From: an uncultured Desulfosporosinus sp.
Lineage (GTDB): Bacteria > Bacillota > Desulfitobacteriia > Desulfitobacteriales > Desulfitobacteriaceae
Assembly: GCA_927405585.1 (NCBI GenBank)
Contig: CAKMJS010000066.1
Coordinates: 1 to 32,222, forward strand
Direction: 5' to 3'
DNA length: 32,222 nt
Part shown: piece by piece, positions 2,829 to 31,044 of the stretch
Layout: each line of letters begins with the position of its first letter
Numbering within the stretch: position 1 is the stretch's first letter
Made by a program: the position numbers and the translations under genes
The notes under the pieces: generated by a model
Databases searched by the model: none
Told to the model about the DNA's origin: nothing
Seen by the model: only the letters and a program-made list of their open reading frames with translations

Positions 2829-5800
2829 TTACAATGTTAAACGAACAGTATGAGTTTGACCATCATCCTTTAATAAAATCTCAGGCTCCAACAACACTTC
2901 TTCATCCAAAGTAATCCTGTCACACCCGGTCATTCTACTCATCGGATTTTCGATAATTATCTCATATGTTGCCGTTTTGAACTGATACGTTAATCGATAA
3001 CCCCGCCAGCGGCTTGGAATACAAGGCTTCAGAACTAATTTATCGCCATGACGTGTAAAGCCCAATATTCCCTCTAACCCAGCTTGATACATCCACCCCG
3101 ATGCTCCAGTATACCACGTCCATCCTCCCCGTCCTATATGCGGGTGAGAAGCATAAACATCGGCTGCCATCACATAAGGCTCCACTTTGTAGCGATTCAC
3201 CTCATGTTCTGTACGAGCATGATGAATAGGACTTAGCATCTGAAACAGTTCTAAGGCTTTGTCCCCTTCCCCTAAACTTGTGTAAGCCAGGATCGCCCAA
3301 GTAGCTCCGTGTGTGTACTGTCCACCATTTTCCCGAACCCCTGGAACATACCCTTTAATGTACCCAGGATCGGGCAGGAACTTGTCAAAGGGTGGAGTCA
3401 GTAAAAGGAGAACTCCGTCTTCTTTTCGCCATAAGTAGTGCTCTAAGGCCAACATAGCGTCCTTTGCCCGAGTTGGCTTTGCAGCACCAGAAAGTACTGC
3501 CCAGGACTGGGCAAGTGCATCAATTTGACATTCCTTGTTTTGCGAAGATCCCAAGGGAGTTCCATCATCAAAGTAGGCTCGCCGGTACCAACCGCCATCC
3601 CAACCATGCAACTCAATACTTTGGAGAAGTTCCGCCGCTATACGTCGATACCGCACTCCCCTCTCTAGGTCCTGCCGATCATCACATAGGCTAGAAAAAC
3701 GAGTTAAGGTTAGATAAAAAAACCACCCGAGCCACACGCTTTCTCCTTTTCCTTTAATGCCAATTCGGCTAAATCCATCATTCCAGTCTCCGGAACCGAT
3801 CAGAGGTAGCCCGTGTTCACCAAATCTCAGCCCTCTCTCGATGGTTCGAACACAATGCTCGTAAACATTTCCGTGCTCTTTTGTGCTCCTTGGAATCGAA
3901 TATACTTCATCTTCATCCTCCTTTAGGTGGTTATCCTCAAGAAAGACGTTTGTTTCATCTAAAATAGTTGTGTCCCCTGTACGCTCTATATAATGGGCAG
4001 TTACGAACGGCAACCACAACAAATCATCAGAAAATTTTGTTCGTATCCCTTTTCCCGTTTCAGCGTGCCACCAATGCTGTACATCCCCTTCTACAAACTG
4101 ATGACCACAGTGGAGAATGATTTGATTACGAGTGACCTCGGGGGACGTGTAGACAAGGGCCATCACATCTTGAAGTTGATCCCTAAAACCATAGGCTCCT
4201 CCTGACTGATAAAATGCCGATCGTGCCCATACACGACAGGCAATAGTTTGATAGAGCAACCAACGATTGAGAAGCAAATTCATTGAGGGGTCTGGCGTGT
4301 GTACTTGAACGTTCCCCAATACCTCGTCCCAATACCTCTTAACTTCCTCTAAAGCCTCCTTAATCTGCTGGGGCTGACTTAAATTAGTTGTAATTCTCTC
4401 GGCCTCTTGACTATTTTCTGTTTCACCTAGTAAAAAAGTGATGGCTTTTGATTCACCAGGGGCTAATGAAAACAGAAGTTGCAACGCACAGCATGGGTCA
4501 AGTCCCGCTCCTACTGTTTCTGAGAATAGATCCTGCTTCAAACCCATAGGATCTTCCAAAGTTCCATTCCGTCCAATAAATTCTGACCGATCCCCTGTAT
4601 AACTCGCTACCGGAGCCCCAAACGCAGTCAAAAATCCAAGCCTTCCTACAAATTCTTCTTGAAATGTGTTTCGTGTATAGAAGATGTCCCTTTCTCCGTC
4701 ATACTCTGTCACTAGGTAGGGAGCAGTATTCTGACGAGCGACACCCATCACCCATTCCGCATAATAGACTGCACTTAAGCGCAACTCGTGATTGGTTGTG
4801 TTGGTCATTAATAATTCGATAACCTTTACTGACTCGTCTATCGGGACAAAGTAATGCAACGATTGCTTGATACCATGACTATAATGCTCAAAAATTGAAT
4901 ACCCTTGACCATGTCGGATGGTATATGAACCCTTCTCACGTTTTGGACTAGCTGTAACCGACCAAAATTCACCACTGTGTTCATCACGCAGGTAGAGGGC
5001 TTCCCCTGGAGGATCGAGAATGGGATCATTTGACCAAGGGGTAAGCTTGTACTCTCGACTATTCAGAGACCAAGTATATCCAGCACCTACTTCTGATATT
5101 TGAAAACCAAATTTAGTATTGGCAATGACATTGATCCAAGGTAAGGGAGTGTTCATACCTTCCTGTAGATGAATAATATACTCTTTACCATCCTCACTGA
5201 ACCCACCGTACCCATTCGCAAACTGAAGACGATCCATCGATTTGTCTAGAGCCTCTTCGCGAAACTCACGAACTCGTTCTTGATCTCTTTTGAGCATTTG
5301 ATCTCGAGCCTTTTCAAGGGTTATCTTTTCGCGATGCTCTACATCTCCAGTCATAAATTTTCTTTTTTTGCGAACTTGAATAGAACACGATCCTCCTTCT
5401 CCATTAAAAGTCATCCGTGCTACGGCACATAGAAGAGTAACATCCTCTTGCTGAACATGACCTTTTTGCAGGAGAAAGACCCCACCTGACTGATTTAATA
5501 GATCACGAGCATGCCCCATTGAGATTAAATCCCTTAAGTTATCTTGGAAAGCCTGTAAATAACCGCTCTCATCTTCATTGAATATCACCAGATCAGCAAA
5601 TAGCCCTTTAAGTCTCCAGTATTCATGAATTGTTAGAAATCTACGAACTAAATCCATGTTTTCTGTATCTTTAACTCGAAGAAGGACGATGGGCAAGTCA
5701 CCTGAAATGGCATACGGCCATAAAGAAGACTGCCCTTTATGATTATTCTTAATGCATTCCGCGACATCACTTCGACATGGGCTCAGATAAAGCAAATGCC

Positions 5801-8800
5801 CTCCAAGACTCAAACCCTCGTTGGCCTGTGCTGCTGTCAAATTTAAATGCCGAAGCTCCATTTTGCTATGGGTCCATGCCAGTTCAAAAGCCCTATTAAC
5901 AGAAAGCGGGTCTCTGTACTTTTCTGCGATACGAATTATTTCCTCACGACTCTCCGCGTATCCAACCGAGAAGGAGACCCGGACAGTTTGACCTGGAGCG
6001 ATTCTAACCCGTTGACGCAAGCTCATCATTGGATCCAACACTGCTCCAACGGTATTAGACAAGGGATGATTAGCATCTAACGCTTGAGGCTGGGCAAGGC
6101 TTCTCCCCCGTCCTATAAATCGGGCACGGTCTGTCTCATATTGCAGTGAACCAATCTTCTCTCCCTCCGTCGCAACGGTGTGCATGAGCCATAATCGAGC
6201 TTGTTTCTCACTGCGTGGTCGTCTGGATGCCAGTAAAGCTCCCTGCTCAAATTCAGTTTGAATAAAGAGATTACCAAACGCTGGATGCGCTAAATCTTCA
6301 CTTAACCTAGCTAAAACCACTTCAAAATAGCTAGTGACCTCCACTGTTCGATCGTGTTTACTGCGATTCGTCAAAGAAATTCGACGCATTTCTGCTTGGT
6401 CTTCAGGGGACACGACGATTTCAGTCCGAGTAATAATGTTACCATCCTTGCGAGAGAATTCCACTCGATCAGGAGCATAGGTCACCTTATAGTCCTCTCC
6501 AGAATACCGACAAGGTTGGTGTGTAGCAGACCAGACCTCACCGGAATTTAGGTTTTGAATATAAAAGTACATCCCCCAGGCATCCTGTGTCACATCTTCG
6601 CGCCATCGTGACAGATTAATATCCCTCATACGACTGAACCCTGCACCTGCATTTGTCATCATCACTGAATATTGACCATTAGAAATACAGTGAGTGGCAG
6701 GAATTGCACTCTTGGCGGTCTCCATAATAATAAACTGGTTTTGTTCCGAATCAGGGTCTTTAACTTGACGTTCATTCACAACCTGCTCCCCTTCAACTTG
6801 AGGTACAGGAGGGGTGGACTCAGGTAAGCGTTCTTGGAGTAGTAGCTCTGTGGCTTGGATCATGGCTTCGCTGTGGAAACGCTTGGGCATGATATTCTCA
6901 TGTACCACATTATCAATTGCTAATAAACTCATTCCTTGATGATGGGCCATAAAGCTCTGGATTAGCATAAATGAACGTTCACTGGGGATCCGTTCAGGGG
7001 TAAAGTCAGCCGCTTCATATAACCCATAGCGTCCAGCAAAACCCATTTTTTCCATTGTCGAAATATTTAATAATGCCTCATGTGGAGAAACCATTAAGGC
7101 TAAAAAACTGGCATAGGGAGCAATGACTAGATCTTGAATCAAGCCCCGCTTAAGACCAAGTCCTGGAACTCCAAAGGCTTTATATTGATAATTCAGCTGT
7201 GGATCAAAGGCGTAAAACCCTGACTCTGAGATCCCCCATGGTACGTTGTGTTCGATTCCATACTTTCTTTGTACCTCCACAACATTACGAGACGTTTCAT
7301 CGAGGAGGGTTCCCTCAAAATTCAACATGACCAGAAGCGGCATTAAGAATTCAAACATTGTACCACTCCAGGATACTAAACTACGTTTTCCCTTCGCCAG
7401 GGTTAATGAACGTCCAAGTTTGAACCAATGATTGTGATGCACATCCCCTTTGGCAATGGCTATGAAGCTCGCCTGTCGAGCCTCTGAAGCCAACAAGTCA
7501 TAATACGACTTATCGAGCATGTTTTCTGCAACACGGTAGCCAATCGAAAAGAGTTTACGTTTATCATCAAATAGCGGACGGAAATCTGTCGCAAAAGCTA
7601 GCTTCTCAAGCCGCTGCTGTAGATCTATTGATTCTTGCTGATAACCTTGAATCTTCAGGAGCACTTTCTGAAGTAGCGCTTTCATCTCGGGTGAAAAACT
7701 CTGTTCCTCAAGCCCATCCAGATAACATTTGGAGAGCTCATCCAAGTTATTCGTTTTAAAAATCCGCGCATTGAATAGAGTTGTCTCGTCCATGTGATCC
7801 GGATCAAAATACCATGGGTAGATATCATGCGTCTCCTGACGGAACGTGACAATCATCGTTTCGAGACGGCGTGCCCAATAATCCCCCTCTTTTGTCAATT
7901 CCTGATCAACGAGGAGGGAAGGCCAACGGGATAATAGATTCATCCAGTTTTCAAAATTCCAGGCCTCATCGGAACTTAACATATGATCCAGGGCCTGCCC
8001 AAATCCTTTAAGTTCCTCATTACAATCTTCATCTATTGCTTCAATTAATAAGTTATAGGTATCTTTAAGACCGCGCACAAACTCCAAGTCTAGCAACGAT
8101 TTATTTAATATCTCAGAAAGACCGGATCTTAAGGTCAATAAATAAACCACGAAATTTCCACTATCTACCGTTGAAACATAGCGCGGCTCTAAGGGCGCAA
8201 GACTCTGAGTATCATACCAATTGTAGAGATGCCCTTTCCATTGATCTAGTCCTTCTAGAATTTGCAGAGTACTATTAATACGTTCATGCACTTTCGCTAG
8301 CGTAATGTACCCAAAATCCCTAGCAGCCAAGTTTGCGAGTAGAGCAAGCCCAATGTTGGTAGGGGAAGTTCGATGGGCTATACCATTAGGGGGTTCAATC
8401 TGAACATTATCTGGAGGAAGCCAGTGATCCTCGCTGCTAACGTACTCTTCAAAAAAGGCCCATATTTTCCTTGCCCAGCGACGCAAGGCATGCTGTTCAG
8501 AACTTGAGAGCATTGCCTTTTCATGTATTGTAGGCAGGCTAACTCGATAAGCGAACCAGGGAGAAGCTAACCAGACTATCGCCAAGGGTACAAATAGCCC
8601 TATCCTTGCGGGAAACATACTAAGAATCATTAAAAAGGAACCGATGACTAATAGAATAACTGACCACATCGAAAAAACCATAGTCTTCATTCTCACATCT
8701 AAACGTTTCTCCGTATCTGCGGCCGTTTCCCATTCTAAAAGAGAGCGGTGTGAGATAACCTGACGATAGACGCTACGAATAATTGCGTCTAGCATGATGA

Positions 8801-11423
8801 AGGCCTGATAAGGTAGTAAGATAAACTGAAGTGAGAACTGAATAACCATTGTCGAAATATCCTGACCCACGTTTTCTTTCTCTAATCCTTCAGTTAAGAG
8901 CATACTAAGCATATTCAAAACCATAGGCCAAATTAAACTTAAGGAAATTAGCCCTACCCATATCCACGGCTTTCCATAAAGGACCGTGAAAGCTACGATG
9001 AGCAGCAAAAATAGTGCAGGAGCTTCTAAACTCCTCCTTAAATTATCAAATATTTTCCAGCGTGAAACAAAGGGTATCGGCTTGAACAACCAAGGTAGGA
9101 GTTGCCAATCTCCCCTGACCCAGCGGTGCGACCGACGCATATAGGCAAGGTAGTTAGCAGGATAGCCATCGATCAGTTCTACATCCGTTACAAGCCCTGC
9201 CCTTGCGTATAACCCTTCGATTAAATCATGACTGAGGATAGTGTTTTCCGGAAACGCCTTAAAGGTAACCTGATGAAAGATAGCAACATCATAGATTCCC
9301 TTACCTGTGAAAATTCCTTCTCCAAATAAATCTTGATAAACATCTGATACAGCAGATGTGTAGGGATCAACTCCGACCCGACCTGAAAAGATCCGTGCAA
9401 ATTTTGACGCCCCTGCGCACAGAATTGAAACCCCTACCCGCGGTTGAAGTATCCCATATCCCTTCACTACTCGCCTTCCATCTGCACTCAATTGCGGAGC
9501 ATGAAGAGGGTGTGCGAGAGTACCAATGAGTTGTCTTGCAGTTCCTTGAGGTAACTGAGTGTCTGCATCAAGGGTAATTACATAACGAAAGGTCGGCAGG
9601 ATCGATAAATCACCTATTTGAACATCATAGCTAGTTTCTCCATCCTGGCGTAAAAGGCAGTTAAATTCAACTAATTTGCCGCGTTTTCTCTCCCACCCCA
9701 TCCAGACCCCTTCAGAATCATTAAATATCCGCTTTCGATGGAAGAAGTAAAAACGATTTTGATTATACTTTTTATTTAGGTTATTAATTGCTGCGGTTGC
9801 CGTCGAGATAATTTCCTCATCGCCTTGAACTACTTCGGACGAGGCGTCCGCGAAATCCCCAAGTAATGCAAAATACAAATTATCATCTTTGTTTGCAAGA
9901 TAATAAACTTCCATTTGACCAATTAGGTCATGAACTCTAGTAAGACTCGTTAATAGCGTTGGAACTGCAACCATTGTTCTCAATTCTTGAGGAATCCCTT
10001 CCCTCAACTCTAGTTTAGGCAGGAAAGTGGGTCGGAAAAGTACCGAGGCAATCCAATTCACCAACGGTAATATCAAACTACTCGCCCAAACCAAAAGCCC
10101 TAGAGCTATAACAACGTAGCCGAGGGAGAATGATGCATCTTGAAGTGCATACGATATAACCCCAGTCCCTAGGCTACCAACTCCAAGCAGCAAACCTCCA
10201 AAATAATACCTATTAGGCTGTTTCCGAATCGACCGACGAATTTTACTTGCAAGATTACGGGACTCCCCAAAGTCTTGTTCTACTTCTCTTTCAAGTTCAA
10301 TTCGTCCTGGTCCAATTAAATCATACCCGACATGAGAGGCTACATACTCCCCTTGATCATTTGCCTTATTTGATCTTGATACTACAGTTCTTGCCACGAC
10401 CAATTCTGAAACTCGATAACGTCGAGCAATTTTTTCTACATGATGACGATAAACATCTCGTGATTGAAAGTCCATTTTGCAATAGACGTTACTAGGATCC
10501 TTTTGAAATTCCCTTTCCACTAAACTAACTTCTTCAAAAAAACGAGGCCAATCTTCAGCCGTGACAAAATGGATGCTTTGAATAGCATGGCCCATAGAAA
10601 CTTGGTACATAGACTGTCGTTGACGCTCAAGTTTTGCCAATTCCTCAATCGTTGTGTCCTGCTTAGCGACTACTCGGTCCACCCAGTGCAAGAGCGGTGC
10701 CGTATCGATTCCAAGGTCCCTCAAACGTTTGAGCAACTGTTCTGCATAGGCTGAGGAATACTCCTCTTGAGCAGTGAGCGTTTTTAATATGCCTTCCCAT
10801 TCGTCTGGTCGATGTTCGGATTCCAATAAAGGCATCACCCATCGGTCTGCAGCTTCCCTTTCCGCTTGGGTGAAGATGATTTGTTCGGTTAACCTTCGGA
10901 TGTTTTCCAGAAGAACAATTCTTAACATAATTGGAATTGCCCATAGTTCTCCACTCGACAAAGGCACTTGAACCTGATAAGCATTAATAAACGCTTTAAG
11001 TGTGTCACTTTGCAACTGACTATCCGTATGTTCGATGAGTTCAACTAATAAACCATAAACCCGAGGATATCCTTGAAAATCTCCACTAGCGTTTCTTGGC
11101 AATTGACGTTCAAATTTATAAGGAAGACTTTTTTGAATTTCTTCCTTTAAGTTTTTTAAACTATAATAATTGTCTAATAACCATTCCGTAGCAGGCAAAA
11201 CATCCTGTGTTCTAGTTGAATAATCTACAATATCTCGATAGGCCTGCTCTAAAAACTTAATATTTTGTTTAACCCTAGGCAACAAGGTTCGCTTCGGTAA
11301 ATTAACTTCCTGGTGAGCATGTAAACGCGCAATCTCTTGGGCATGACTCAGCAGATCTTCCCTGTTTAAGACAATATCTTTGTATGGTTTATTTTTTGCA
11401 ATATATCGTGTAAATATCTTCAT
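2829..11423 (-). CDS. Cyclic beta-1,2-glucan synthase (NdvB/ChvB type; GT84 + cyclisation domain + GH94)
   Basis: This giant membrane enzyme (2864 residues from the chosen start) would polymerise glucose from UDP-glucose into beta-1,2-glucan and cyclise it. Visible in order are: two hydrophobic segments at about 404-463; the GT84 glycosyltransferase with the DAD motif at 619-621 and HRWVRGDW near 766-773; further membrane helices at about 797-845 and 915-962; a glycoamylase-like domain, the family now recognised as the cyclising transglycosylase, with ERSFMLIQSFMAHHQGMS near 1483-1500; then GH94 phosphorylase-type modules with the acidic GSGDWNDG motif, second Asp at 2549. Length matches Brucella and Agrobacterium enzymes. 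The open frame extends 31 codons further upstream, but that part overlaps the terminator of the preceding gene. ATG at 11423 has GGAG seven bases upstream and begins MKIFTRY. Product use in this organism (periplasm-like space, spore or export) is unknown. Confidence 0.9.
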   Translation of the reverse strand: MKIFTRYIAKNKPYKDIVLNREDLLSHAQEIARLHAHQEVNLPKRTLLPRVKQNIKFLEQAYRDIVDYSTRTQDVLPATEWLLDNYYSLKNLKEEIQKSLPYKFERQLPRNASGDFQGYPRVYGLLVELIEHTDSQLQSDTLKAFINAYQVQVPLSSGELWAIPIMLRIVLLENIRRLTEQIIFTQAEREAADRWVMPLLESEHRPDEWEGILKTLTAQEEYSSAYAEQLLKRLRDLGIDTAPLLHWVDRVVAKQDTTIEELAKLERQRQSMYQVSMGHAIQSIHFVTAEDWPRFFEEVSLVEREFQKDPSNVYCKMDFQSRDVYRHHVEKIARRYRVSELVVARTVVSRSNKANDQGEYVASHVGYDLIGPGRIELEREVEQDFGESRNLASKIRRSIRKQPNRYYFGGLLLGVGSLGTGVISYALQDASFSLGYVVIALGLLVWASSLILPLVNWIASVLFRPTFLPKLELREGIPQELRTMVAVPTLLTSLTRVHDLIGQMEVYYLANKDDNLYFALLGDFADASSEVVQGDEEIISTATAAINNLNKKYNQNRFYFFHRKRIFNDSEGVWMGWERKRGKLVEFNCLLRQDGETSYDVQIGDLSILPTFRYVITLDADTQLPQGTARQLIGTLAHPLHAPQLSADGRRVVKGYGILQPRVGVSILCAGASKFARIFSGRVGVDPYTSAVSDVYQDLFGEGIFTGKGIYDVAIFHQVTFKAFPENTILSHDLIEGLYARAGLVTDVELIDGYPANYLAYMRRSHRWVRGDWQLLPWLFKPIPFVSRWKIFDNLRRSLEAPALFLLLIVAFTVLYGKPWIWVGLISLSLIWPMVLNMLSMLLTEGLEKENVGQDISTMVIQFSLQFILLPYQAFIMLDAIIRSVYRQVISHRSLLEWETAADTEKRLDVRMKTMVFSMWSVILLVIGSFLMILSMFPARIGLFVPLAIVWLASPWFAYRVSLPTIHEKAMLSSSEQHALRRWARKIWAFFEEYVSSEDHWLPPDNVQIEPPNGIAHRTSPTNIGLALLANLAARDFGYITLAKVHERINSTLQILEGLDQWKGHLYNWYDTQSLAPLEPRYVSTVDSGNFVVYLLTLRSGLSEILNKSLLDLEFVRGLKDTYNLLIEAIDEDCNEELKGFGQALDHMLSSDEAWNFENWMNLLSRWPSLLVDQELTKEGDYWARRLETMIVTFRQETHDIYPWYFDPDHMDETTLFNARIFKTNNLDELSKCYLDGLEEQSFSPEMKALLQKVLLKIQGYQQESIDLQQRLEKLAFATDFRPLFDDKRKLFSIGYRVAENMLDKSYYDLLASEARQASFIAIAKGDVHHNHWFKLGRSLTLAKGKRSLVSWSGTMFEFLMPLLVMLNFEGTLLDETSRNVVEVQRKYGIEHNVPWGISESGFYAFDPQLNYQYKAFGVPGLGLKRGLIQDLVIAPYASFLALMVSPHEALLNISTMEKMGFAGRYGLYEAADFTPERIPSERSFMLIQSFMAHHQGMSLLAIDNVVHENIMPKRFHSEAMIQATELLLQERLPESTPPVPQVEGEQVVNERQVKDPDSEQNQFIIMETAKSAIPATHCISNGQYSVMMTNAGAGFSRMRDINLSRWREDVTQDAWGMYFYIQNLNSGEVWSATHQPCRYSGEDYKVTYAPDRVEFSRKDGNIITRTEIVVSPEDQAEMRRISLTNRSKHDRTVEVTSYFEVVLARLSEDLAHPAFGNLFIQTEFEQGALLASRRPRSEKQARLWLMHTVATEGEKIGSLQYETDRARFIGRGRSLAQPQALDANHPLSNTVGAVLDPMMSLRQRVRIAPGQTVRVSFSVGYAESREEIIRIAEKYRDPLSVNRAFELAWTHSKMELRHLNLTAAQANEGLSLGGHLLYLSPCRSDVAECIKNNHKGQSSLWPYAISGDLPIVLLRVKDTENMDLVRRFLTIHEYWRLKGLFADLVIFNEDESGYLQAFQDNLRDLISMGHARDLLNQSGGVFLLQKGHVQQEDVTLLCAVARMTFNGEGGSCSIQVRKKRKFMTGDVEHREKITLEKARDQMLKRDQERVREFREEALDKSMDRLQFANGYGGFSEDGKEYIIHLQEGMNTPLPWINVIANTKFGFQISEVGAGYTWSLNSREYKLTPWSNDPILDPPGEALYLRDEHSGEFWSVTASPKREKGSYTIRHGQGYSIFEHYSHGIKQSLHYFVPIDESVKVIELLMTNTTNHELRLSAVYYAEWVMGVARQNTAPYLVTEYDGERDIFYTRNTFQEEFVGRLGFLTAFGAPVASYTGDRSEFIGRNGTLEDPMGLKQDLFSETVGAGLDPCCALQLLFSLAPGESKAITFLLGETENSQEAERITTNLSQPQQIKEALEEVKRYWDEVLGNVQVHTPDPSMNLLLNRWLLYQTIACRVWARSAFYQSGGAYGFRDQLQDVMALVYTSPEVTRNQIILHCGHQFVEGDVQHWWHAETGKGIRTKFSDDLLWLPFVTAHYIERTGDTTILDETNVFLEDNHLKEDEDEVYSIPRSTKEHGNVYEHCVRTIERGLRFGEHGLPLIGSGDWNDGFSRIGIKGKGESVWLGWFFYLTLTRFSSLCDDRQDLERGVRYRRIAAELLQSIELHGWDGGWYRRAYFDDGTPLGSSQNKECQIDALAQSWAVLSGAAKPTRAKDAMLALEHYLWRKEDGVLLLLTPPFDKFLPDPGYIKGYVPGVRENGGQYTHGATWAILAYTSLGEGDKALELFQMLSPIHHARTEHEVNRYKVEPYVMAADVYASHPHIGRGGWTWYTGASGWMYQAGLEGILGFTRHGDKLVLKPCIPSRWRGYRLTYQFKTATYEIIIENPMSRMTGCDRITLDEEVLLEPEILLKDDGQTHTVRLTL

Positions 11424-11492
11424 TCTTCGTCTCCGTCTATTTTTTTGCATCATTAATGCATTATTCCCATTCCTCCATTCTTCATTCATCAT

Positions 11493-11530
11493 AAAGAAAC
11501 ACTCTAACCAATTCATTGTTGGTTAGAGTG
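11493..11530 (-). terminator. Intrinsic terminator after ftsK
   Basis: A 12-bp perfect stem pairs 11500-11511 (CACTCTAACCAA) with 11519-11530 around a 7-base loop. Read on the minus strand it follows the ftsK stop by 24 bases and is trailed by TTTCTTT. It separates ftsK from the glucan synthase gene and overlaps the longest possible reading frame of the latter, arguing against that longer start. Confidence 0.82.
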
Positions 11531-23026: not shown

Positions 23027-25051
23027 TTAATGACCTTGAGCAGATTTTAATTGACTTACCAATGATTCACTGAGTTTTCCCGGAACTTCTTCGTATTGGA
23101 GAAATTCCATCGTAAACGAGCCTCTCCCCTGAGTTAAGGATCTCAAATCAATCGCATAGCGCATCATTTCAGCTTGGGGTACATGGGCGCGGATTATTTG
23201 GTAGTTTTCACTGTCAGCAACCATACCCAACATTTTTCCGCGTTTTCCATTGATATCCCCGATCACATCACCCATAAAAATTTCTGGAACTTTAATTTCT
23301 ACTTCAACAACAGGTTCGAGTAACGTAGGTTTTGCCAACTCTACCCCCTTACGAAAGGCGATGATCGCTGCCAGTTTAAACGCCATTTCAGATGAATCAA
23401 CTGCATGATAAGAACCGTCGCAGAGCGTTACTTTAATATCCGTCACAGGATAACCTACCATAGTTCCTTCTGCCATAGCCTCTCGAATGCCTTTTTCGAC
23501 AGCTGGAATATATTGTTTAGGGACTGATCCACCGAAGATTGCCTCAGCAAACTCAAAGTCTTTACCTTCAGAGGGTTCTATATTAATCCACACATGGCCA
23601 TACTGACCATGACCACCCGTTTGTTTCTTATGCTTCCCTTCCACTTTAACCGCTTTACGAATTGTCTCGCGATAGGGTACACGCGGAACTTTCATAGATA
23701 CTGCTACTCCAAACTTTCGGGTCAGCTTCTCTAGATAAATTTCAAGGTGCATTTCTCCTAATCCAGTTAAAAGCAATTCTCTAGTTTCAGTATTCTTACT
23801 AATCTTAATTGTCGGATCTTCTTCTGACAAACGTGCCAACGCACTGCTAAGTTTATCCTCATCCCCTTTAGTCTTTGCCTGAATCGCCACTGATAAAGTA
23901 GGTATAGGAAAATCAATGCCTTGAAGTATAATTTGATGTTCTTTTGCGCATAAGGTATCTCCAGTTCTCACTTCTTGTAATTTGGCGACAACGGCAATAT
24001 CTCCAGCGGATACTGAAGTAACTGGTTCTTGTGTTTTCCCACGCAGATAAAATGGTTGCCCAATTTTTTCCTCTACCCCGCGACTAGAATTATAGACTAG
24101 AGTTTCTGCACTGAATTTACCTCCATAAACTCGGAAAAACGACATTTTACCAACGTAAGGATCAGCTAGTGTTTTGAATACTAAAGCCACTTTCTCAGGG
24201 ACTATCTCAGGGGTGGGAACGAAATCAGCTAAAAAATCCAGGATATTAGTAATCCCAATATTTCTGTATGCTGATCCGCAGAGTACGGGGATAATAAGAT
24301 TTTGTTTTAACGCCTGTTGCAAAGCAGTTTTTAAATCCTCTTCGGTTAGCCTTTCCCCTTCAAGATATTTCGTCAGGACCTCGTCATCCGCCTCGGCGAC
24401 TGACTCGGCTAACTGCTCTCTTAAAAGGTCAATCTCTAACTGGTACTCGTCAGAAACTTCTTTAACCGAAAATTTACCGCTCCCATTGGCTTCATAGTCA
24501 TAATGCTTATTCTTGACAATATCAATCACGCCCAGAAAACTATCCTCTTGACCGGTTGGTAGCTGTAAAGGAACAAAGCGCGCAAGTGGGTAAGTATCTC
24601 TAAGCTGTTCTAAGACCTTACTAAAATTGGCATTTTTACGATCCAGTTTATTAATAAAGATTACTTTAGGTAACTTCTGATGTTCCATCACGTTTAAGGT
24701 GATTTCTGCCTGAACTTCAAGACCTGCCACGCCACAAAGCACCAAAACGCCGCACTCGGCGACGCGCAAGGCACTCTTAACTTCCCCAAAAAAGTCTAAG
24801 TATCCTGGGGTATCAAGGACATTGATTTTAACCTCTTGCCACTCAATCGGAATAAGACTCGTACTAATCGACACTTTGTGTTTCACTTCTTCGGGTAAAA
24901 AGTCCGAGACGGTGTTCCCCTCAGTAATTTTGCCAATTCGATTGGTCACACCCGAATTGAAAAGAAAGGTTTCCGCTAAGGAAGTCTTTCCTGCTCCACC
25001 ATGCCCTACCAGACAGACGTTGCGAAGATGTTTTGTGTCATAGGTCTTCAA
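23027..25051 (-). CDS. Elongation factor G-like GTPase (paralogue)
   Basis: This 674-residue translational GTPase has EF-G architecture. The G domain contains P-loop GHGGAGKT (16-23), DTPG (80-83) and NKLD (134-137); a beta-barrel domain II follows, then domain III near LARLSEEDPTIKIS, domain IV with GGHGQYGHVWI, and domain V. The standard switch region (ERGITI in canonical EF-G) is replaced by PEEVKHKVSIS. That, together with the absence of ribosomal-protein or EF-Tu neighbours, marks it as the EF-G-like paralogue common in Firmicutes rather than the housekeeping factor. Its exact role (alternative translocation, recycling or stress) is not established by sequence. The start is TTG: GGAGGAG lies six bases before it. 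It has its own long leader and terminator, so it is probably monocistronic. Confidence 0.92.
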   Translation of the reverse strand: MKTYDTKHLRNVCLVGHGGAGKTSLAETFLFNSGVTNRIGKITEGNTVSDFLPEEVKHKVSISTSLIPIEWQEVKINVLDTPGYLDFFGEVKSALRVAECGVLVLCGVAGLEVQAEITLNVMEHQKLPKVIFINKLDRKNANFSKVLEQLRDTYPLARFVPLQLPTGQEDSFLGVIDIVKNKHYDYEANGSGKFSVKEVSDEYQLEIDLLREQLAESVAEADDEVLTKYLEGERLTEEDLKTALQQALKQNLIIPVLCGSAYRNIGITNILDFLADFVPTPEIVPEKVALVFKTLADPYVGKMSFFRVYGGKFSAETLVYNSSRGVEEKIGQPFYLRGKTQEPVTSVSAGDIAVVAKLQEVRTGDTLCAKEHQIILQGIDFPIPTLSVAIQAKTKGDEDKLSSALARLSEEDPTIKISKNTETRELLLTGLGEMHLEIYLEKLTRKFGVAVSMKVPRVPYRETIRKAVKVEGKHKKQTGGHGQYGHVWINIEPSEGKDFEFAEAIFGGSVPKQYIPAVEKGIREAMAEGTMVGYPVTDIKVTLCDGSYHAVDSSEMAFKLAAIIAFRKGVELAKPTLLEPVVEVEIKVPEIFMGDVIGDINGKRGKMLGMVADSENYQIIRAHVPQAEMMRYAIDLRSLTQGRGSFTMEFLQYEEVPGKLSESLVSQLKSAQGH

Positions 25052-27726: not shown

Positions 27727-28482
27727 TCATTTTTTATCAAAAATAGTTTGCCAGGATTTTACACATGCGAAATCCGTTAAATCACTATGCATGGGAGTAA
27801 TGGAAACATAGTCCTCCTGTATCGCTTTGAGATCAGTATCAATCTCCAGGTCTTGGGTTAAATTTCCACACTGCCAATAATACGATCTTCCATGAGGGTC
27901 AACCCGTCGTTCAAAAACATTTTCATAAACAGCTTTACCCAGTCGAGTTACTCTCACTCCACGCCACTCAGATAGAGGCTTTCCTGGAATATTTATATTC
28001 ATTAAACCGGTTTGATTATGCTGGACAATATAATCTAATTGCTCAGACAGATAAGTTGCAGCTGGTTCAAAATTCATAAACTCATAGCTCGCTAGAGATA
28101 CCGCAATTGCAGGGACTCCGAGTAATACCCCTTCCATGGCCGCTGAAACCGTACCCGAATAAAATACATCCGTTCCTAAGTTGGGTCCGAGATTTATTCC
28201 AGATATAACTAGATCGGGTCTGGAAACTATCCCCCCTTGTATTGCTAGCTTTACACAATCAGAAGGGGTACCACTTATGGCGTACCCCTTCTGCTGTCCG
28301 TCAAAATTGTGTTCTGTTAGAAAGAGTGGCTGAAATAAAGTTATAGAATGACCTGTGGCTGAACGCTGACCTTCAGGGGCAACTATGCTAATATCATGGT
28401 TTGTATGCGATCTAAGGGTATGATATAACGTTTGTATCCCAAGTGCATTATAACCATCATCGTTGGTCAGTAGAATATGCAT
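27727..28482 (-). CDS. surE: 5'/3'-nucleotidase SurE
   Basis: This 251-residue metal-dependent phosphatase dephosphorylates nucleoside 5'- and 3'-monophosphates and short polyphosphates and acts as a dimer in the cytoplasm. The N-terminal LLTNDDGY (metal ligands Asp8 and Asp9), VVAPEGQRSATGH-type segment (here IVAPEGQRSATGHSITL), SGTPSDCV, and SGINLGPNLGTDVFYSGTVSAAMEG blocks are all family hallmarks and include the Asn and Ser of the active site. Length is typical. The ATG follows a GGGGGAAAAG site. It is the last gene of the queD-to-surE run, 13 bases after the previous stop. SurE has no known step in deazaguanine synthesis, so co-transcription may reflect general nucleotide salvage. Confidence 0.96.
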   Translation of the reverse strand: MHILLTNDDGYNALGIQTLYHTLRSHTNHDISIVAPEGQRSATGHSITLFQPLFLTEHNFDGQQKGYAISGTPSDCVKLAIQGGIVSRPDLVISGINLGPNLGTDVFYSGTVSAAMEGVLLGVPAIAVSLASYEFMNFEPAATYLSEQLDYIVQHNQTGLMNINIPGKPLSEWRGVRVTRLGKAVYENVFERRVDPHGRSYYWQCGNLTQDLEIDTDLKAIQEDYVSITPMHSDLTDFACVKSWQTIFDKK

Positions 28483-28706: not shown

Positions 28707-29279
28707 TTAACGTCTATGTCCTTGAATCAGTGAAAAAGCTTCGGATCTTGTTATGGGATTTGTTTTGAAAATACCACGTACTGCTGAGGTCAATGTTTGG
28801 GATCCTGCTTTCTTGACCCCTCGCATAGTCATACACATATGCTCTGCTTCAATAACGACCAAAACACCTAATGGAGCAAGTTCTCCCATTATTGCATCGG
28901 CTATTTGGGACGTCAAGCGTTCCTGAAGCTGTGGTCTTCGAGCAAAACCCTCAACTACACGAGCGAATTTTGACAAACCGGATATTTTTCCTTTACGCGG
29001 GATATAGGCAACATGCGCTTTTCCATAAAAGGGTACCAAATGATGTTCACACATAGAATAAACTGGGATATCCTTAACAATGACCATTTCTTCATGAACC
29101 TCAGAAAATTGCACTTTCAAATGGCGACTTGGGTCATCATGTAACCCTGTAAAAATTTCTGCATACATTCTGGCGACTCGTTTCGGTGTATCCCTTAACC
29201 CTTCACGGTCAGGGTCCTCTCCAATAGCCTCCAAAATCATATAAACTGCTTGCTCAATCTTTTCTAAATCCATCTCCAT
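28707..29279 (-). CDS. folE: GTP cyclohydrolase I
   Basis: This enzyme converts GTP to 7,8-dihydroneopterin triphosphate, the first step of both tetrahydrofolate and 7-deazaguanine synthesis. It is a homodecameric zinc enzyme in the cytoplasm. From the chosen start it has 190 residues, normal for the type IA family. Zinc ligands lie in [11 protein letters not shown] (Cys77, His80) and in the [10 protein letters not shown] block, and [12 protein letters not shown] and RPQLQERLT are conserved substrate and assembly segments. The frame extends ten codons upstream to a TTG, but AAAGGAG lies nine bases before the ATG at 29279, which is preferred. The position directly after queE ties it to queuosine precursor supply. 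A second folE for folate may exist elsewhere. Confidence 0.96.
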
Positions 29280-29326
29280 AATCTCTTTCTCCTTTACAAT
29301 GGTCCTCAAATAATAAATTTCAATTA

Positions 29327-30058
29327 TTATAATTGTCCTATAAAAACATGTGTTTGTGGAATGACTCGAACATTAATGAGTTTCTCAAGTAAAAGGCTTT
29401 GCCATTCTAAGAGTTGCTTTGGTTTGGGTGTCAGAATGCCTTGCGATGGAGTCACAGGCTGAAGAATCGTTAGAATCGACGGGTCAACCCTAGCAATTAA
29501 ATCCCTAGCATATTGAAGGTCTTTCAGGGGTGTATCTTGATGAACAACTATTTTAACAAATACTTCTTTTTGATTACTGTATCGCAAAAAGGTTTCATGA
29601 ACATCCCAAAAATTCTTACTATCAAAAGGCAACTTAATGTCCATACTGACAACGTCAACCAGCGATAGTAATTGTAGAAGTTGATCTGGCAACGTTCCAT
29701 TGGTCTCAAGGTATATCTTTAAACCATTCTCCTTTATAAAGGGCAACAGCACTAGCAATTCGTCCGCCCAAAGAAGGGGCTCTCCACCTGTGACACTCAG
29801 CGAATGATGGATTGAAAAATCATAAGTCAGTAGCAGGTCAAGCAACTTATCGAGAGGTAAAGCATTGTCTATTTTGCTGAAAATCCGTGTCCCCGGTACC
29901 TTCTCAACCCGAAACTGTTTAGGTATCTTAGTCTCTGTATCACAATAGGGACATGTTAAGTTACACTTTGGTAATCGCAGAAATAGTTGTCGAACCCCCA
30001 CGTATGGACCTTCTCCTTGAATCGATGAAAATATCTCTGAGACTGGCAGCTTTAACAT
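29327..30058 (-). CDS. queE: 7-carboxy-7-deazaguanine synthase QueE (radical SAM)
   Basis: QueE rearranges 6-carboxy-5,6,7,8-tetrahydropterin into 7-carboxy-7-deazaguanine by radical SAM chemistry. The 243-residue protein opens with the family block [19 protein letters not shown] and carries the [4Fe-4S] cluster motif [11 protein letters not shown], with cysteines at 32, 36 and 39 (CX3CX2C). [10 protein letters not shown] is the SAM-contacting GGEP motif, and YLETNGT and VVSMDIKLP follow as expected. The ATG at 30058 overlaps the stop of the preceding DUF366 gene in a TAATG arrangement, implying translational coupling. folE begins 47 bases after its stop. It belongs to the queuosine operon. 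The family call is secure. Confidence 0.96.
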
Positions 30059-30621
30059 TATTGAACCCCTCGAACTTTACATCGGGCGAGACGTATAGAA
30101 TGCACTTCATCACAATAATGTTTAGCAACGCTCTCTCCGAACGATAAAATATCCTGTATATGAAGATTCTCTAAGCCAATGGTGGGAATCGGGGTATTCT
30201 GGTTCGATACATTAAGGCCACAATGAATCAGGGTGGATACCGGGGAAAGAGTACTGATACTCACAGAAAGTTTATTGTTCCCTTCATAGAGATCATCTCC
30301 ACTCCGCTTCAGAGTTGTAACTCCAAGCTTCTCAAGTTCTTCCTTAATTGTAGAAATGAGTAAACGTTGCCTTATAATAGTCTTCTCTAAATCCATTTCG
30401 AAATGTTCCACAATAAAGTGTAGCATGTCTTCGCTGTAGATCCAGTCCCGGGCTAAGACATCCTCCATATCCACCATCTCGTTTTGTTCTACACGGCATG
30501 AGCCCCGAAAGATACTTATGCTATCACCCATAAGCCCAAAATTTTTATAGGCAAACAAGGATTGGAGTTGGCTTCCATTATAGTTCATAGGTTTGTCGAG
30601 TACGATGTATTTCATGACCAT
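30058..30621 (-). CDS. DUF366-family protein, possible biotin/lipoate-ligase-like fold
   Basis: This 187-residue soluble protein matches my recollection of DUF366, a family of unknown function found in archaea and some bacteria. Visible blocks are GLMGDSISIFRGSCRV (30-44), DMEDVLARDWIYSEDM, an R-Q-R at 84-86, GDDLYEGNNKL (108-118) and IHCGLNV (132-138). The order 'N/D-D-L-x3-G-x-K-L ... I/H-x-G-x-N-V' recalls the ligand-binding strands of biotin protein ligase and lipoate ligase (BirA: NDLY...RKLAG, GAGINM), so a related fold is my inference. It begins three bases after the queD stop with GGAGG eight bases before the ATG, and its stop overlaps the queE start. This tight packing between QueD and QueE argues for a role in deazaguanine or queuosine metabolism, so far unproven. 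Confidence 0.75.
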   Translation of the reverse strand: MVMKYIVLDKPMNYNGSQLQSLFAYKNFGLMGDSISIFRGSCRVEQNEMVDMEDVLARDWIYSEDMLHFIVEHFEMDLEKTIIRQRLLISTIKEELEKLGVTTLKRSGDDLYEGNNKLSVSISTLSPVSTLIHCGLNVSNQNTPIPTIGLENLHIQDILSFGESVAKHYCDEVHSIRLARCKVRGVQ

Positions 30622-30624
30622 TCA

Positions 30625-31002
30625 TCAGTCCTCCTTAAAAATAGCCCATGCATCAGGAGATTCGTTGATCTGAACCCATGCTAAGCGCTTTTCCGTAAGG
30701 ACCAAGTCCTTTTTAAGCTCACTAAATATAACTTGTGCTAAGTTCTCAGCTGTTGGATTAACCCCATTTAAACCAAATGAAGGTATGTCATTTAATAAAC
30801 TATGATCCATTAATTTTAATTTTTCTCGAATAATCTGCTTAACTTCCTTGAAATCTATTAACATCCCTAAATGATCTAATTTTCTGCCTTCGATACAGAC
30901 TATTACATCCCAACGGTGACCATGCAATTGTGCACAGTTTCCGTCATAATTCCGAATAAAATGAGCAGCATCGAAATGCGCTTGAACACATACCTGAAAC
31001 AT
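30625..31002 (-). CDS. queD: 6-carboxy-5,6,7,8-tetrahydropterin synthase QueD
   Basis: QueD turns dihydroneopterin triphosphate into 6-carboxytetrahydropterin, the substrate for QueE. The 125-residue zinc enzyme belongs to the PTPS family. From the chosen start the zinc histidines are His14 (in FDAAHFI), His27 and His29 (LHGHRW). Cys23 in NCAQLHGH is the usual catalytic thiol. MDHSLLND supplies the second catalytic His, and PTAENLA contributes the conserved Glu region. The frame opens seven codons upstream, but AAGGAG is found six bases before the ATG at 31002, so that start is chosen. It is the first gene of the queuosine operon, behind a sigma-A promoter. I see no preQ1 riboswitch in the short leader. 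Confidence 0.95.
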   Translation of the reverse strand: MFQVCVQAHFDAAHFIRNYDGNCAQLHGHRWDVIVCIEGRKLDHLGMLIDFKEVKQIIREKLKLMDHSLLNDIPSFGLNGVNPTAENLAQVIFSELKKDLVLTEKRLAWVQINESPDAWAIFKED

Positions 31003-31044
31003 TTTTCGCTCCTTATTTGACATATTACACTCTATTTTAACATT

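Follow-up and report, generated by a model that had tools for sequence, protein, structure and literature searches.

DUF366, a protein family with a biotin/lipoate-ligase fold, belongs to bacterial and viral 7-deazaguanine gene sets and may act beside QueC

DUF366 (PF04017) is a conserved part of 7-deazaguanine gene sets, both those serving tRNA in anaerobic bacteria and those serving DNA in uncultured viruses. We describe it here from a gene in the window, the whole stretch of 32,222 nucleotides analysed, which comes from a genome close to Desulfosporosinus. The reading that we prefer, tentatively and at a little under an even chance, is that DUF366 is a catalytically built accessory enzyme of the segment from GTP to preQ0, and that its most likely target, in partnership with QueC, is the carboxylate of 7-carboxy-7-deazaguanine (CDG). 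The relevant features of the window are:

27727 to 28482, minus strand: surE, a downstream neighbour conserved in Bacillota and outside the pathway (profile match, survey of loci)
28707 to 29309, minus strand: folE (GTP cyclohydrolase I), downstream operon gene (profile match)
29327 to 30058, minus strand: queE-type radical SAM gene, a divergent QueE (scores under the NCBIfam QueE cut-offs)
30058 to 30621, minus strand: DUF366 (PF04017) gene, 187 aa, with a predicted biotin/lipoate-ligase fold (ORF list, Pfam profile, model)
30205 to 30273, minus strand: codons of DUF366 residues 117-139; both Lys117, which aligns with the catalytic Lys of biotin ligases, and Asn137, which aligns with the Asn of their GIGxN motif, are invariant
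30286 to 30300, minus strand: GDDLY codons of DUF366, residues 108-112; Asp110 aligns with the Asp of the biotin ligase WPND motif
30625 to 31023, minus strand: queD (6-carboxytetrahydropterin synthase), the operon gene upstream of DUF366 (TIGR03367 above cut-off)

The preliminary description had DUF366 packed between queD and queE. This packing is real; it lies on the minus strand, which that description did not give, and the plus strand of 30058-30621 is interrupted by stops. The operon runs queD, three bases, DUF366, a one-base overlap, queE, folE and then surE. The three bases separate the end of queD from the annotated ATG of DUF366; a second in-frame ATG at 30615, the start site of most homologues, gives a gap of nine bases, and the DUF366 stop and the queE start share one base within the TAATG at 30056-30060. 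The DUF366 product matches PF04017 with 241 bits (cut-off 29.9; E 6.8e-72) over residues 3-184, covering 184 of 184 profile positions, and its closest relatives are 88% identical. The QueE of the window scores 54-70 bits against QueE cut-offs of at least 200, and is therefore classed as divergent. A search for preQ1 riboswitches came up empty in the window and at seven operon loci. Elsewhere in the window, a single ORF of 2895 aa (2829-11516) probably encodes a very large cyclic-glucan-synthase-like enzyme, and an EF-G-like GTPase of 674 aa (23027-25051), in conserved synteny with the surE region, is probably a second EF-G copy.

The earlier guess of a biotin/lipoate-ligase fold, made from GDDLYEGNNKL (residues 108-118) and IHCGLNV (residues 132-138), proved right. 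The structure, predicted with confidence from 61 sequences (pLDDT 95.1, pTM 0.91), has a Foldseek probability of 1.00 for the biotin/lipoate ligase superfamily fold, and VIA-align gives Z-scores of 29.0 with 2ddz, up to 13.9 with biotin ligases, 13.4 with LipB and 12.6 with LplA, the ligases standing well above the background of the tool; a fold unrelated to the BPL/LplA/LipB group, which would have refuted the guess, did not emerge. The structure PDB 2ddz is that of PH1223 of Pyrococcus horikoshii, a solved homologue (E 1e-37, 42% identity) deposited without a function in 2007. In the family profile alignment, GDDLY....KLSVSIAT....IHxGLN falls on the biotin ligase core WPNDVYFQEKKVSGVLCE...GIGIN, so that the segment singled out earlier aligns with the ligase core, catalytic Lys included, and hhalign against a BirA returned the same register; this Asp-Lys-Asn match is one of sequence alignment only, by HMM and by hhalign. 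Asp110, Lys117 and Asn137 are invariant in the 61 homologues and likewise in the viral ones, and invariant Asp, Glu, Gln, Lys, His and Asn residues recur across bacteria, PH1223 and viruses. A Pfam search at E 0.01 found DUF366 alone, with no PF03099 match, and BPL chains appeared in a family-profile search at E 0.4-0.9 only. The N-terminal part of DUF366 carries a different conserved stretch, YDGxQLxSL, and the glycine-rich ATP/acyl loop (GRGRxG or an equivalent) is absent among the conserved columns. Thus, judging from the model, the fold part of the ligase reading is right, but ATP-dependent ligase chemistry is not secured, because this loop is missing. A ligase fold in deazaguanine synthesis had been put forward as new; the tie to the pathway stands, but the fold was already solved in 2007, and the new part is the distribution of DUF366 across deazaguanine loci.

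That distribution is broad. DUF366 scored above cut-off in 31 of 249 Bacillota genomes and, among 14 controls, in Methanocaldococcus and Methanosarcina, archaea that make no queuosine and need no preQ1. The gene order around it is far beyond chance, since it recurs in about 110 bacterial loci (Bacillota neighbourhoods plus 80 named loci, two sets that overlap in some genomes), where DUF366 mostly sits between a divergent QueC, here QueC', and QueE: queD-queC'-DUF366-queE-folE(-surE). The survey of neighbours bore out that DUF366 is very strongly associated with queD, queC, queE and folE; tgt lies elsewhere in the genomes tested. TGT and QueA are both encoded in all 40 DUF366 genomes tested. 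Several other Bacillota (G281, G282, G291, G312, G313 and G314, among others) have QueC, often with QueD and QueE, and neither QueF nor DUF366.

QueC' carries EEAxTFPDN where canonical QueC has DYSGYPDCR. Comparison with the published QueC-family proteins (PMC13279940) shows that it retains an aromatic residue and the Asp by which the base is read, and it should therefore still bind a 7-deazaguanine. Among the 249 phylum-wide and 73 order-wide genomes there was no case of QueC' without DUF366, QueC' being called by score plus the motif of fetched copies. Within Desulfosporosinus, DUF366 is absent only where QueC' is absent (Fisher p = 2.8e-4): in six genomes (G291, G312, G288, G297, G305 and G298) the syntenic locus reads queD-queE-folE-surE, with queC' and DUF366 cleanly gone and no QueF. 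The group C genomes of this genus retain queD and queE without DUF366, and their loss of the two adjacent genes was possibly one deletion.

The converse loss also occurs, and several lineages, that of the window included, have lost QueC' and retained DUF366. In the window operon queC' is missing; we rejected the idea that DUF366 substitutes for QueC there, as a QueC of a third type (EDARNWAYPDCT) is encoded on another contig of the same genome (C64). Heliobacteria and Carboxydocella keep DUF366 without queC', and have a canonical QueC elsewhere in those tested. In one genome (G228), which has TGT and QueA, the locus is reduced to DUF366-folE-surE, without queD, queC or queE, and there is no QueC anywhere in the genome. 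In the window's clade, where QueC' was lost, purifying selection still acts strongly on DUF366 (dN/dS 0.04-0.12, against 0.07-0.17 for QueE). The QueC gene on C64 (9449-10147, genes to 15074) immediately precedes the genes of an ABC transporter (permeases, a BMP-type binding lipoprotein and an ATPase); the transporter beside third-type QueC, seen also at loci L255 and L257, is a candidate 7-deazaguanine precursor transporter. At L247-L249, from one genus of the window genome's family, QueC stands by a Vut_1/QPTR-like transporter with no QueD, QueE or QueF nearby, an arrangement suggestive of salvage, the salvaged precursor being one that enters the pathway before QueC.

Relatives of DUF366, 36-47% identical to the window protein, are encoded on 16 uncultured viral contigs; a single-protein query gave no match, and the alignment queries agreed on these 16 contigs. 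In seven of them DUF366 adjoins queC, and four of these seven also carry a DpdA-type transglycosylase. QueC is directly upstream of DUF366 in the seven cassettes, except that a single small ORF separates the two in L304, and in six of the seven it is unlike the bacterial QueC'. The order in L308, L310 (of which L311 is a copy) and L312 is queD, (phosphoribosyltransferase), queE, queC, DUF366, folE, QueF and a DpdA-type transglycosylase, although only L308 has a confirmed phosphoribosyltransferase and L310 lacks a detected queE. L303, L304 and L306 share the order queD, folE2, queE, phosphoribosyltransferase, queC, DUF366, and L304 additionally has a protein with DUF5591, a domain known from archaeosine synthase, and a weak radical SAM match. 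L315 has queD, queE, folE, a DpdA-type protein, a QueC'-like QueC and DUF366; L305, L307 and L309 have queE and DUF366 beside an unnamed protein; and in L302 DUF366 adjoins folE2, with no queC in view. A small phosphoribosyltransferase (PF00156) in or beside the cassettes of L302, L303, L304, L306 and L308 could turn the modified base into a nucleotide. The two viral DUF366 copies that were compared with PHROGs matched nothing there, and no plasmid record matched PH1223. In the phage collection DUF366 occurs in a single record, Microcystis phage MaAM05 (MW495066.1, L181, 274 kb), in which the DUF366 gene is beside a penicillin-binding protein gene; we set this record aside as evidence, as it looks bacterial (secDF, glyS, fliM, fabI, ompA).

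Taken together, the bacterial and viral contexts tie DUF366 to 7-deazaguanine synthesis whatever the end product, and place it closest to QueC. Viral cassettes that have DNA-type transglycosylases carry the gene as well, which makes one option of the preliminary description, direct action on tRNA, unlikely as the only role of DUF366. DUF366 would instead serve the segment from GTP to preQ0, which is common to queuosine, archaeosine and the DNA 7-deazaguanines, and so to all of the systems that bear it. Two carboxylates in this segment, those of carboxytetrahydropterin and CDG, could be activated by a ligase fold; activation or transfer of one of them was suggested in the preliminary description and would agree with the data. 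We choose CDG because the neighbour shared by bacteria and viruses, QueC, acts on it. QueC adenylates first CDG and then the amide of CDG, an established chemistry (PMC13279940), and QueC-family proteins, Cap9 included, act on CDG with ATP (PMC13279940). The Asp, Lys and Asn kept by DUF366 would be those that ligases use around the acyl-adenylate; acting beside QueC on the CDG carboxylate, DUF366 might, for instance, form or handle a CDG-adenylate en route to the amide and preQ0. Its enzyme nature, its use of ATP and CDG as its substrate are all inferred. A protein-substrate role like that of Cap9 partners was rejected, as the N-terminus of DUF366 has no conserved Gly.

Several observations count for an accessory step at CDG: the queD-queC'-DUF366-queE-folE order in most of the bacterial loci, QueC upstream of DUF366 in the seven viral cassettes, the joint absence of QueC' and DUF366 in Desulfosporosinus with QueC' never found alone, the varied end products (genomes with QueA and TGT, viruses with QueF and DpdA, and the control archaea), and the fold (Z 13.9 to biotin ligases), the invariant Asp110, Lys117 and Asn137 and, in the clade without QueC', the dN/dS of 0.04-0.12 of the protein itself. 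Against it count the persistence of DUF366 with canonical QueC (Heliobacteria, Carboxydocella) and without any QueC (G228), the GRGRxG loop absent from the conserved columns, and the possibility that group C lost its two adjacent genes in a single deletion. The tie to QueC is also partly a tie to the whole operon, QueE and FolE being almost as constant, and L302 has no queC in view. Furthermore, DUF366 cannot be generally required, given that preQ0 is made in its absence by E. coli and B. subtilis; the E. coli QueC works unaided. The narrower proposal, that a ligase-type DUF366 itself adenylates the CDG carboxylate and so provides a second, QueC-assisting activation route in anaerobic bacteria, archaea and DNA-7-deazaguanine viruses, we regard as rather doubtful.

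Three other explanations deserve to be weighed. Our former leading idea was that DUF366 replaces QueF, converting preQ0 to preQ1, alone or with a redox partner, in Bacillota without the nitrile reductase. Among 73 QueC-positive Bacillota, two had both genes, 28 had DUF366 only, 29 had QueF only and 14 had neither, so that QueF was present in 2 of 30 genomes with DUF366 and in 29 of 43 without it (p = 1.4e-7; by family, p = 1e-5); in an order-level sample of 73 genomes, DUF366 occurred in 30 and QueF in 14, with zero overlap. This anticorrelation is real in the sample, and shared ancestry of the QueF-less lineages may lie behind it. The TGT and QueA found in all DUF366 genomes tested, and in G228 despite its missing QueC, would also agree with such a role. 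However, QueC, DUF366, FolE, QueF and DpdA are encoded side by side in three viral cassettes (L308, L310, L312), which speaks strongly against a replacement, the control archaea have DUF366 with no need of preQ1, and QueF also occurs in 4 of 32 named DUF366 genomes and in the genus of G028/G247. Many QueC-positive relatives, Desulfosporosinus included, have neither gene, which means that, if these make queuosine, another preQ1 route must exist. The fold, moreover, has no known redox chemistry, and no report of a QueF replacement turned up in the open literature searched. We therefore demoted this idea, on the same-genus genomes with neither gene and the viral co-encoding, and now consider it improbable.

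A role in which DUF366 would instead bind the finished base (preQ0 or preQ1) and hand it to TGT, DpdA or a phosphoribosyltransferase suits every end product, and it agrees with G228 and with the viral cassettes, in which DUF366 is combined with DpdA homologues and often with a small phosphoribosyltransferase beside queE or queC. We nevertheless find this unlikely: queC and queE are its closest and most constant neighbours, tgt is elsewhere, the phosphoribosyltransferase was not noted as a member of bacterial operons, and Desulfosporosinus group C does without DUF366. A role earlier in the pathway, at the pterin or QueE steps (on dihydroneopterin triphosphate or carboxytetrahydropterin), or as a non-catalytic partner or regulator of the operon enzymes, is little better placed. 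The carboxytetrahydropterin carboxylate could also be bound by a ligase fold, queE adjoins DUF366 in most bacterial loci, and folE or folE2 accompanies it in G228 and L302; however, the invariant Asp, Glu, Gln, Lys, His and Asn favour catalysis, and group C has queD and queE with no DUF366.

Through its tie to 7-deazaguanine synthesis in bacteria and in viral DNA-modification cassettes, PF04017, a family with a structure but no function since 2007, acquires a pathway, together with a candidate for its substrate and an assay that is simple. The loci also reveal an unexplained variant of the pathway, in which a divergent QueC never comes without its ligase-fold partner and most of the lineages lack the known preQ0 reductase. 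In the open literature searched, no paper on DUF366, PH1223, 2DDZ, COG2029 or PF04017 places the protein in this pathway, although unpublished or subscription reports may exist. We know of no precedent for the biotin/lipoate-ligase fold in nucleobase biosynthesis; if DUF366 does activate CDG, a fold of protein lipoylation and biotinylation would have been recruited for modified nucleobases.

Among known systems, PH1223 (PF04017; 2ddz) shares family and fold with the window protein over its full length; it is annotated as of unknown function, with no pathway, and the context reported here is that of bacteria and viruses only. LplA and LipB resemble DUF366 in fold (Z 12.6 and 13.4) but are less than 15% identical to it, no lipoylation genes were noted near DUF366, and the PCG cysteine, a motif of LipB, has no counterpart in the DUF366 alignments. 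With BirA and other biotin protein ligases it shares the fold, with Z reaching 13.9, as well as an Asp-Lys-Asn core by alignment, whereas DUF366 has YDGxQLxSL, no GRGRxG in its conserved columns, no PF03099 match and a genomic context of deazaguanine synthesis rather than biotin. QueF, the nitrile reductase, has a distribution in Bacillota that looks complementary to that of DUF366, but DUF366 has no QueF profile match and the two genes stand together in viral cassettes. Finally, the QueC family, Cap9 included, has the PP-loop fold, different from that of DUF366, and it is QueC that is the direct neighbour of DUF366.
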